Below are positions 21,963-50,494 of a stretch of DNA of 64,000 nt, piece after piece. How positions within the stretch are numbered: the stretch's first letter is position 1; each line of letters starts with the position of its first letter. The position numbers and the translations under genes were made by a program. Under the pieces are notes generated by a model, which had not been told where the DNA came from, did no database searches, and saw only the letters and a program-made list of their open reading frames with translations. Source of the stretch: Desulfitobacterium metallireducens DSM 15288 (GTDB lineage Bacteria > Bacillota > Desulfitobacteriia > Desulfitobacteriales > Desulfitobacteriaceae); assembly GCF_000231405.2 (NCBI RefSeq), contig NZ_CP007032.1, positions 1,426,001-1,490,000 of the forward strand. Reading direction: 5' to 3'.

Positions 21963-22011
21963 GACGCACAAACCTAAAAAAGAACATAAAGACACAGAAA
22001 TACTGTGCTAG

Positions 22012-22120
22012 CTCCTCTTTCCATCCAGACTATACTGTCGGCTCTGGACTTTCACCAGATCAGCCTTTCGGCTCGCGGGCTTTACCGCCGGTAAGGAATT
22101 TCACCTGTCCCCAGAGGGTA
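22012..22120 (-). ncRNA. FMN riboswitch (RFN element)
   Basis: The minus strand carries the conserved RFN blocks in order: GGACAGGTGAAATTCC, ACCGGCGGTAAAGCCCGCGA, GGTGAAAGTCCAGAGCCGAC and AGTCTGGATGGAAAGAGGAG. The closing P1 stem pairs CCTCT (22113-22117) with AGAGG (22014-22018). With FMN bound, the downstream terminator should form and shut off ribD-ribE-ribBA-ribH. Confidence 0.96.
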
Positions 22121-22141
22121 TTATCATTTGAAATTGTTTAT

Positions 22142-45738: not shown

Positions 45739-46311
45739 ATGAAACGAGCCTTAATAATCGGAAATTCACGACAAATATCAGAACTTAAAACAATAATTCC
45801 TTTGGCAGATTACCAGGCGATTGCTACGACGTCCAATGGAATTGAGGGTTTACGTCTCCTTCACCGCTTTGAACCTGACTTAGTCATAATGACTTGGAAC
45901 ATTCTTGGCCTGAGTACTTTTGATTTATTGCAAAATATTGTTTCGCAAAGACTTTGTCCTGTTATGGTCGTCATCTCACAAGAGGATATAAGTGCCTTGC
46001 CTGAAATTGTAAAATTAAACCCACATTATGTACTTGTTCAACCTCTTCGCGCATTTGATTTAATAACAGGCGTTCTCTATATCGAACACCTTTTTTTACA
46101 AGAACAAGAAACGCTTAAGAAAATTACTCGTTTAGAGAATGATCTAAAATTACGTAAAGTTCATTATCAAGCCCTCCTTATGCTTATACAAGAAAAAGGA
46201 TATGACGAAAAAACAGCTTATCGAAAGATGCAACAATATGCGATGTCGAAAAGAAAAACTTTATATTCTGTCGCCATGGAAATAATTAAAGGAAACTGGT
46301 TACCAGAATAA
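45739..46311 (+). CDS. ANTAR RNA-binding antiterminator with degenerate receiver
   Basis: The protein (190 aa) has the fold of a receiver domain (1-118) but not its chemistry. The N-terminal acidic pair is replaced by GN in LIIGNSRQ, and the phospho-acceptor Asp is Thr52 (LVIMTWNILG). A coiled coil leads to an ANTAR domain (about 125-186), recognisable as ALLMLIQEKGYDEKTAYRKMQQYAM followed by SVAMEII. ANTAR proteins bind twin hexaloop RNA hairpins to prevent termination. Activation cannot be by standard Asp phosphorylation. No cognate hairpin pair is evident nearby. Confidence 0.85.
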   Translation: MKRALIIGNSRQISELKTIIPLADYQAIATTSNGIEGLRLLHRFEPDLVIMTWNILGLSTFDLLQNIVSQRLCPVMVVISQEDISALPEIVKLNPHYVLVQPLRAFDLITGVLYIEHLFLQEQETLKKITRLENDLKLRKVHYQALLMLIQEKGYDEKTAYRKMQQYAMSKRKTLYSVAMEIIKGNWLPE

Positions 46312-47570: not shown

Positions 47571-47999
47571 ATGCAAGTTAAAGTTAGAAATATTAAAGGA
47601 ATGCATTTTGAAGGAGAAGGACAATCAAAAATCCGTACCCAAATCGATTCAAGTGTAACGAACGGTGGAAGTGGTATAGGATCGAGCCCGATGGAAATGG
47701 TACTCATGGCTATAGCAGGTTGTAGTGGTATGGATGTTGTATCCATTTTGGAGAAAATGCGTATTCACTATCAACGCTTTGAAATTACCGTCCAGGGCGA
47801 CCGAGCAGCTGAGCATCCAAGGGTTTTTACGGATATCGAAGTTGAATATCAATTTTGGGGCGAAGGGCTTGAAGAGGAGCATGTTCAACAAAATTTAAAG
47901 CGAGCTATTGATTTATCCGTGGAAAAATACTGTAGCGTTGCCAACATGATTGACAAAGTTGCTAATTTAACGTACAAATTGGAAATCAACCCAAAATGA
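47571..47999 (+). CDS. OsmC/Ohr-family protein
   Basis: The protein (142 aa) has the OsmC fold. The first reactive-site region reads AIAGCSGMDVVSILEKMR (about 46-63), holding the Cys expected to attack peroxides. A second Cys lies in VEKYCSVANMI near 123. Family members detoxify organic hydroperoxides or handle sulfur species. ATG 47571 follows AAGGAGG at the normal distance; a TTG at 47565 is too close. The stop codon lies within a 12-base tandem repeat. Confidence 0.88.
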   Translation: MQVKVRNIKGMHFEGEGQSKIRTQIDSSVTNGGSGIGSSPMEMVLMAIAGCSGMDVVSILEKMRIHYQRFEITVQGDRAAEHPRVFTDIEVEYQFWGEGLEEEHVQQNLKRAIDLSVEKYCSVANMIDKVANLTYKLEINPK

Positions 48000-48035: not shown

Positions 48036-48064
48036 TTGAATGAATATAGCTCATTTGCTATACT
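48036..48064 (+). promoter_or_regulatory. sigma-A promoter of the glycosidase-like gene
   Basis: -35 TTGAAT (48036-48041), 17-base spacer, -10 TATACT (48059-48064). The start site would be near 48071, only about 17 bases before a terminator hairpin. Confidence 0.72.
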
Positions 48065-48087
48065 AATGTGTATCGATGTTGAAAATG

Positions 48088-48123
48088 AAGGCCGCACTCA
48101 TATCAAGGCGGCTTGTTTTTTTG
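48088..48123 (+). terminator. terminator in the leader (possible attenuator)
   Basis: AGGCCGC (48089-48095) pairs with GCGGCTT (48108-48114), seven pairs including one G-T, across a 12-base loop. Seven Ts follow (48116-48122). It lies between the promoter at 48036 and the coding start at 48181. Confidence 0.68.
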
Positions 48124-48180
48124 AGTAGATTTAAGAATAAACTATTTATATCAAGAAATAGAGGAGAAAAGGAATTTAAT

Positions 48181-49161
48181 ATGAAAAAAAGGAAAATGAG
48201 GACTCAAAAAATCCGTTGGAAGATGATTATTTCCTTTATTGCATTTAATCTTGTTTGCGTAACTATCCTCGCTCCCTTTATTGTTTTTTGGGGACCCTTC
48301 GAAGCGATAAAAGTAATGGCGGTTGGCTCTATTGCAACTTCTCGACATCCGCAGGTTGTTCAACTTTTTCTTTCTGAAGAAAAAATTAGTGAAATCATGC
48401 ATACGTATGATTCTGCTGGTGCATCAACGGGTCTAAATGTTGAGACCGCTCAAGTGATGAATGATCCATCCTCAGGTATAACGATTGAGGATATAAAGGG
48501 TCAGAATTTCAAAGGAAAAGTGATGCTCATTAAAGATCCGACGCGGATCAAGGTTGCAGTGACTCAGGAAATTGGAGTTGCTGGTGAACGATTGAGTGAT
48601 TTCGTTAAGGATACCAATGCTGTTGCTGCAATTAACGCGGGGGGCTTCTATGACCTCAATGGAAAAGGAAATGGAGCTTTTCCTGATGGGCTAACAGTTC
48701 ATAATGGAGATATTGTTCACAACAATGTCGATAATAATCAAGTCAATCTAATAGCGCTTGATAAGAAAGGCCAATTGACAATTGGGGATATGTCAGCCGA
48801 TCAAATTGCTCATAACAACATTCTAGAAGCCGTAACTTTCGGACCCAATCTTGTGGTTAATGGTCAACCTGTAGTTTCTGGAGACGGAGGGTGGGGGATA
48901 GCTCCACGAACTGGTATCGGCCAAAAAGCGGATGGGACAATAATCTTTGTAGTAATTGATGGTCGACAACCTACTTGGAGTATTGGCGCAACTTTACGCG
49001 ATATGATGAACGTCTTTATCGAGTATGATGCCGTGAATGCGGTTAATTTAGATGGTGGATCTTCTTCTGAGATGGTTTATAATGGTAAGGTCATGAACAA
49101 ACTCTGGAATGTATTTGGAGAACGTTATCTTCCAACAGCTTTTGTTGTGTTGCCAAAATAA
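48181..49161 (+). CDS. exported phosphodiester glycosidase-like protein (NAGPA domain)
   Basis: The protein (326 aa) has a basic N-terminus and one membrane segment (about residues 14-37). A NAGPA/phosphodiester glycosidase domain follows (exopolysaccharide-biosynthesis type). Signature stretches are AAINAGGFYDLNGKGNGAFPDGL, FGPNLVVNGQPVV, PRTGIGQKADGTIIFVVIDGR and the final AVNLDGGSSSEMVYNG. Such enzymes trim sugar-phosphate linkages, likely on wall or capsule polymers. ATG 48181 follows GGAGAAAAGGA; the frame is open upstream but would translate the terminator hairpin. Confidence 0.85.
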   Translation: MKKRKMRTQKIRWKMIISFIAFNLVCVTILAPFIVFWGPFEAIKVMAVGSIATSRHPQVVQLFLSEEKISEIMHTYDSAGASTGLNVETAQVMNDPSSGITIEDIKGQNFKGKVMLIKDPTRIKVAVTQEIGVAGERLSDFVKDTNAVAAINAGGFYDLNGKGNGAFPDGLTVHNGDIVHNNVDNNQVNLIALDKKGQLTIGDMSADQIAHNNILEAVTFGPNLVVNGQPVVSGDGGWGIAPRTGIGQKADGTIIFVVIDGRQPTWSIGATLRDMMNVFIEYDAVNAVNLDGGSSSEMVYNGKVMNKLWNVFGERYLPTAFVVLPK

Positions 49162-49201: not shown

Positions 49202-50494
49202 GTGAAAAAAAAGCTTCGAATGATCGTGAGCTGGACCCTCGTGTCCTTAATGCTACAAATTCCAACTTATTATTTGTTAAATCGTCAAATTGAAAAAGTG
49301 ATGACTCCACCCGAAACACAGGTGGTTGTTCGCACTTTAAAAACGAATATTCCAGGTAAGTCCTTTGAAAATATGCAGATTTCCTATGCTAAGGATTATA
49401 TCGCCTATGAAGATGATGGTGTGCTGAAGGTTTACAACCTCGAACAAGAAAAGCAGATATTCTCAAAAGCAGCACCAGGTAATGACAAGAATTTAGGAGT
49501 TCTCTATTTTCAATGGTTGCCAGATCGAAATACTTTAATTTACTTTTATGCTCGAAAGAATCCTAATCCTGTGACGACTGAAGTTGTACCGGTGGACCCT
49601 ACACCAAACTCGCAATCAACTACGTCTGAGAGTTCAGGTACTCAAAATACTGCCCGTACACAATCCAATCCTTCGACGCAAGCTACAAATTCTAATACGA
49701 TTAAGACAGAGGATCCGCATCAAGCTTCTACAGTACCTACAAAACCTGCTCAACAGCAGCGAGTAGTTACACGCTATAATAATCCTCAAATAACCGATCT
49801 TTATACGTTAGAATTACCAGAGAGTAGTGACACGACGACTCAGCCAGATGATCGATTTAATGAGAGTATCAATAGTTTCCCTACTGGCGGAAAAATTACC
49901 AATATGGTCGTCTCAACGTTTACTAATCTAATGTATCTGACCATTAAGAGTGGCACAAATCTTCAACTGATGGAAATTGATGTTATGAAAAATGTAAGAA
50001 ATTTAAATCGTTCAGCTGAAGTTATTACAGAAACTGCTGCTTCTGATAAATTTGGAACGCTTTATATTGAAAGCAAAATTGGAAAATTAAAGACGATTCA
50101 AGCGCTTGAGGGTTCGAAACGCCAAACTATTTCTGACGATGAAAAGGAGACAATTCTCGGAAATCGGGAGGGTACCCTTTATCTTGGTAAGATTGAGGGT
50201 AATAATCTTGTCCAAATTCGCGCAGCAGCTGAGAACGCAGATTCTGCAAAGCTAGAATTTAAGACGGTGTGGGAAGGATCAATCCCCTTCGAAAATTCTA
50301 AAGTTATTATTGGTATAAATAAACAGATTGTGATTTACTCTAATCAAATAGCCAATATCATTCAAAGTGATGGTCAACAAAAGCAAGTAAACTTATCAGG
50401 AAAAGAGAATTTTATCTCCCAAGATGGTGCAGAACTTGTAGAACTTACTCCTAATGGAAATACAACGGATATTGAGCTTAAACCTCTTGAGTGA
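49202..50494 (+). CDS. unknown exported protein, beta-propeller-like
   Basis: The protein (430 aa) has a short basic start and a membrane segment (about residues 9-23), so the bulk should lie outside the cell. Residues 50-115 read like propeller blades (DYIAYEDDGVLKVYNLEQE, then LGVLYFQWLPDRNTLIYFY). A Ser/Thr/Gln-rich spacer (about 125-175) follows. More blade-like repeats come next (ITNMVVSTFTNLMYLTI, GTLYLGKIEGNNLVQI). I do not know the family. GTG 49202 lies 40 bases after the glycosidase-like gene, so a joint role in envelope polymers is plausible. Confidence 0.7.
   Translation: MKKKLRMIVSWTLVSLMLQIPTYYLLNRQIEKVMTPPETQVVVRTLKTNIPGKSFENMQISYAKDYIAYEDDGVLKVYNLEQEKQIFSKAAPGNDKNLGVLYFQWLPDRNTLIYFYARKNPNPVTTEVVPVDPTPNSQSTTSESSGTQNTARTQSNPSTQATNSNTIKTEDPHQASTVPTKPAQQQRVVTRYNNPQITDLYTLELPESSDTTTQPDDRFNESINSFPTGGKITNMVVSTFTNLMYLTIKSGTNLQLMEIDVMKNVRNLNRSAEVITETAASDKFGTLYIESKIGKLKTIQALEGSKRQTISDDEKETILGNREGTLYLGKIEGNNLVQIRAAAENADSAKLEFKTVWEGSIPFENSKVIIGINKQIVIYSNQIANIIQSDGQQKQVNLSGKENFISQDGAELVELTPNGNTTDIELKPLE

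Follow-up and report, generated by a model that had tools for sequence, protein, structure and literature searches.

The element described here lies on the forward strand between an osmC-like gene and a gene of the NAGPA family of phosphodiester glycosidases, within a 64,000-nucleotide stretch of DNA that was analyzed as a whole (the window). The NAGPA product, a putative sugar-phosphate-cleaving enzyme of 326 residues, starts at an ATG 58 nt past the T tract of a hairpin and is preceded, at about 48162, by a ribosome site of the AGGAG type. The coordinates of the features are collected in Table 1. In addition, the window contains a gene for an ANTAR-domain response regulator at 45739-46311 (+), 1.7 kb upstream, and an FMN riboswitch at 22009-22122 (-) (Rfam RF00050, 110 bits). 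Our literature search found no transcript mapping for this bacterial group, and nothing tying the NAGPA enzyme family to Desulfosporosinus.

Table 1. Features at the osmC-NAGPA intergenic region and its flanks, in window coordinates.
Feature	Positions	Strand	Basis or remark
osmC-like gene, upstream	47571..47999	+	Pfam PF02566, E 1.6e-19
Extended -10 promoter, sigma-A type	48036..48064	+	sequence; promoter scan; recurrence upstream of NAGPA (42 loci, 8 genera)
Short leader, inferred start to hairpin foot	48071..48088	+	sequence differs between genera; without antiterminator
Terminator hairpin, AGGCCGC/GCGGCTT	48089..48114	+	sequence; folding; stem pairing over 25 relatives
Seven-T tract of the intrinsic terminator	48116..48122	+	sequence
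Ribosome-binding site region of NAGPA, AGGAGAAAAGGA	48162..48173	+	sequence
NAGPA-family phosphodiester glycosidase gene, behind the terminator	48181..49161	+	Pfam PF09992, E 2.2e-47
Next gene, 430 aa, without Pfam family	49202..50494	+	likely member of the NAGPA operon

Direct reading of the sequence places the -35 element TTGAAT at 48036-48041 and the -10 element TATACT at 48059-48064, separated by a 17-nt spacer that ends in TGC. A simple sigma-A weight matrix that gives credit for an extended -10 ranked this site 7th among 127,930 positions on both strands of the window, and a generic scan picked it up at 9/12 plus TG. Two sites in the window fit the strict pattern TTG-N17-TGnTATACT, as compared with 0.05 in shuffles. 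Based on the position of the -10 element, RNA synthesis would be expected to start near 48071.

The hairpin that follows has the arms AGGCCGC (48089-48095) and GCGGCTT (48108-48114), then a G and the seven Ts, and the terminator lies about 50 bases past the start signal of the promoter. Under a definition fixed only once the hairpin had been seen (at least five G-C pairs followed by at least six Ts), its GCCGC/GCGGC core with the T tract is the sole perfect stem in the window, where 0.1 would be expected from shuffles. The folding energy (-11.6 kcal/mol, z about -1.7) alone would not prove a hairpin, and the terminator rests on conservation. The generic scan missed it on account of its loop, which exceeds 8 nt. 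A pattern search found a single copy in the genome, which rules out a dispersed repeat. An open reading frame from 48076, in frame across the hairpin into NAGPA, was rejected, as it has no ribosome site and is absent in relatives. The initial annotation had described a promoter, TTGAAT-17-TATACT, followed at once by a hairpin with seven Ts and a glycosidase-like gene, with a very short leader. Direct reading, ranking and conservation all bear out this arrangement, the very short leader included.

The conservation of the leader among relatives, which that annotation had proposed as a check, was found. The gene order osmC, intergenic region, NAGPA is common to many Desulfitobacteriaceae, and TTG-N17-TG[CT]TATACT, with a constant spacing of 17 nt, precedes NAGPA homologues at 42 loci in eight genera of the family. 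The promoter is also kept where osmC is not the upstream neighbor: at L064 the promoter region follows an ANTAR gene instead, and at L018, L021, L023, L113 and L117 no osmC lies within the stretch read. The hairpin, GCCGCA-loop-TGCGGC with its T tract, stands between promoter and NAGPA at 33 of the 42 loci, while genus g6 has merely a weak hairpin there. Its stem sequence is nearly invariant across seven genera. Over 25 relatives the stem pairs in 98% of the cells, against at most 47% for slid versions; two pairs are altered on both sides and three never vary, so that the covariation is no more than modest, a level that shuffles can reach. The leader and loop sequences of the short transcript vary across genera, and the terminator alone is conserved. 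Among the non-Desulfosporosinus representatives without the small membrane-protein gene discussed below, the leaders before the hairpin measure 8-50 nt, with 8 nt in g3 (the genus names of g5 and g7 are probable). We judge from these comparisons that the recurrence of promoter and terminator is not due to chance; the pair is ordinary in kind, though unusually well conserved.

The loci that have lost the hairpin indicate which gene the promoter serves. Six of them (L018, L021, L023, L113, L117 and L122) form one well-supported Desulfosporosinus clade in which NAGPA directly follows the same promoter, and 48036-48064 is therefore best taken as the promoter that drives the NAGPA operon. The hairpin was also lost separately at L112 and L115, again with the promoter directly before NAGPA. 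In G035, a further copy directly precedes a homologue, judged by eye from its translated start, of the gene at 49202-50494, with no terminator between. The same promoter was observed at L181 (1582-1700), directly before the homologue of this window gene and without an intervening terminator. A separate Desulfosporosinus branch of NAGPA (L004, L006, L007 and L061) has a conserved upstream block of its own, TTTTTCATCTTGCTTTAATCTTTG.GTGGTAAAATAGCAT, which differs from the 48036-type promoter.

The initial annotation had further held that full NAGPA transcripts need read-through of the hairpin, a claim that would have been overturned by a second promoter located at 48123-48181. The generic scan saw none on the + strand of this interval. 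With the weight matrix, the best score between hairpin and NAGPA was 3.5, below the 5.3 that 85-nt blocks reach on average with their best site, and thus no credible promoter was found there. Another promoter would have too little room in g3, g4, g8, g9 and several Desulfosporosinus, where only 8-37 nt separate the end of the T tract from the aligned NAGPA start; these starts are approximate, and the true ones could be as much as about 15 nt downstream. The need for read-through is supported to this extent. The exceptions are three loci of the Desulfitobacterium group (L003, L008 and L016), where 185-234 nt follow the hairpin and contain promoter-like sites scoring 9.5-13.7, so that NAGPA may be served by a second promoter at these loci. 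Judged by position, the element can be classed as a leader with a promoter-proximal intrinsic terminator, that is, an attenuator: the window holds an upstream promoter on the same strand, a G+C-rich stem with a T tract, and no further promoter between this terminator and NAGPA.

We favor, with moderate confidence, the explanation that the NAGPA-operon promoter and its leader terminator act together as a passive attenuator holding output at a low, fixed level, with the hairpin serving as the osmC terminator as well. The promoter at 48036-48064 would drive the NAGPA operon, and the hairpin with its T tract (48089-48122) would be an intrinsic terminator inside the 5' leader of that operon. Most RNAs started at about 48071 would then terminate near 48122 at a length of about 50 nt, leaving the read-through fraction to supply the NAGPA mRNA. 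The osmC mRNA would end at the same site. The terminator would be fixed and leaky, with constitutive read-through and no switch. A leaky leader terminator of this kind, doubling as the end of osmC, is the most economical mechanism, although the near-invariant stem exceeds what a passive terminator needs.

Ending the osmC mRNA is likely to be a second, mundane role of the hairpin. No terminator other than the hairpin at 48089 follows osmC in this genome, and the same holds for the genera that lack the small membrane-protein gene (g1, g3, g4, g5 and g9), whereas the osmC of Desulfosporosinus usually has its own terminator. Moreover, the hairpin is lost only at loci where osmC has moved away or owns another terminator, as would be expected if it is retained in part to insulate osmC.

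These observations also suit a different explanation, which we regard as possible yet rather unlikely. The promoter and terminator would once have flanked a small membrane-protein gene (smp); here smp would be gone, the hairpin would be kept only for osmC, and any effect on NAGPA would be incidental. The smp gene, which encodes a membrane protein of about 91 residues without Pfam family, still sits between promoter and hairpin in Desulfosporosinus (the probable genus of g7) and g8. It is single-copy or multicopy in Desulfosporosinus (L010, L013, L128, L144, L145 and others), and relocated copies carry the same promoter, suggesting that the promoter may originally have served smp. Either the two signals once framed smp or smp may have been inserted between them, and the tree gives no preference. 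Most of the relocated copies read lie behind this same promoter, TTGATAG...TTTTGTTATACT, and several have a different terminator, AGAAAAGGAACGCC... However, the promoter is intact in at least five genera without smp, and so must still be used by something. The hairpin also survives at the Desulfosporosinus loci L014, L025, L026, L031 and L109, where smp has been lost from this place and osmC has its own terminator. In addition, stem identity averages 0.78 for this hairpin, well above the 0.58 of the osmC terminators in those strains; it is the higher of the two in 136 of 153 non-independent pairs. The persistence without smp and the better-conserved stem speak for more than insulation.

Less probable still is a conditional attenuator, in which a protein or RNA acting in trans would bind the stem, or modify RNA polymerase, and relieve termination under some condition. 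The stem, nearly invariant over the seven genera and unique in the genome, is consistent with such control, as is the regulator gene at 45739-46311, which is of the ANTAR type, a family of antiterminators. NAGPA lies directly behind the ANTAR gene in g6 and in genomes of family f3; the ANTAR-NAGPA link may accordingly be older than the insertion of osmC. On the other hand, an ANTAR target, sought because of this nearby gene, was rejected, since the dual hexaloop hairpins are absent in every leader tested, and the g3 leader has just 8 nt. Pairing of leader segments with the 5' arm does not exceed that of shuffled leaders, and the genes suggest no signal or cofactor. A reiterative start like that of pyrG was discarded, as the relatives share no start sequence. 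The Rfam search returned nothing near gathering score for any riboswitch, T-box or other leader family, in line with the initial annotation, which had noted no known riboswitch. Given the short leaders and the lack of antiterminator pairing, ANTAR motif and Rfam family, conditional control of NAGPA by its leader is not supported. The attenuation proposed at the outset thus stands by position (promoter, terminator, gene); as conditional control it falls short, with no alternative structure in the leader and a hairpin that is also the sole osmC terminator. The more specific idea that a trans-acting antiterminator recognizes the GCCGCA/TGCGGC stem, making the element a family-wide minimal attenuator whose leader is barely more than a terminator, strikes us as speculative and improbable.

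A small RNA gene, with the 50-nt transcript as its product and NAGPA transcribed otherwise, is very improbable: promoter and terminator are self-contained, and a further promoter-like site lies ahead of NAGPA at the three Desulfitobacterium-group loci, but sequence is conserved no further than the terminator, neither leader nor loop being kept across genera, and at hairpin-less loci the promoter runs straight into NAGPA, which leaves little support for the tiny RNA once suggested here.

Under the favored explanation of a fixed, leaky leader terminator, the locus presents a promoter-terminator pair kept over long evolutionary time before a gene without a visible switch. Relatives that differ in having or lacking the hairpin and the inserted gene form a natural series through which it can be asked whether promoter-near leaky terminators are kept for the level of expression or merely for insulating neighbors.

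Known systems resemble this leader in part. At pyrG, a special start sequence builds the antiterminator. The pyrG gene of B. subtilis, a short-leader intrinsic-terminator attenuator of Firmicutes governed by CTP-sensitive reiterative transcription (cited in PMC4448216), is similar in having a terminator just behind the promoter and a gene expressed by read-through; in contrast, the initially transcribed sequence is not conserved at the NAGPA leader and an antiterminator was not found there. In the ANTAR-controlled leaders of EutV, NasR and AmiR, the terminator is preceded by two adjacent hairpins with hexanucleotide loops bearing A1 and G4 (PMC3369931). The NAGPA locus shares with them a terminator in the leader and an ANTAR regulator gene nearby, but lacks the paired A1/G4 hairpins. 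Finally, RNA-seq of Streptococcus agalactiae revealed 11 attenuators without Rfam family (PMC4448216), in which, as we propose for NAGPA, transcription stops prematurely at an intrinsic terminator in the 5' leader. Those attenuators were seen experimentally and have leaders of >75 nt, whereas the NAGPA element, predicted from sequence and conservation, places its terminator within the first 55 nt of the transcript.
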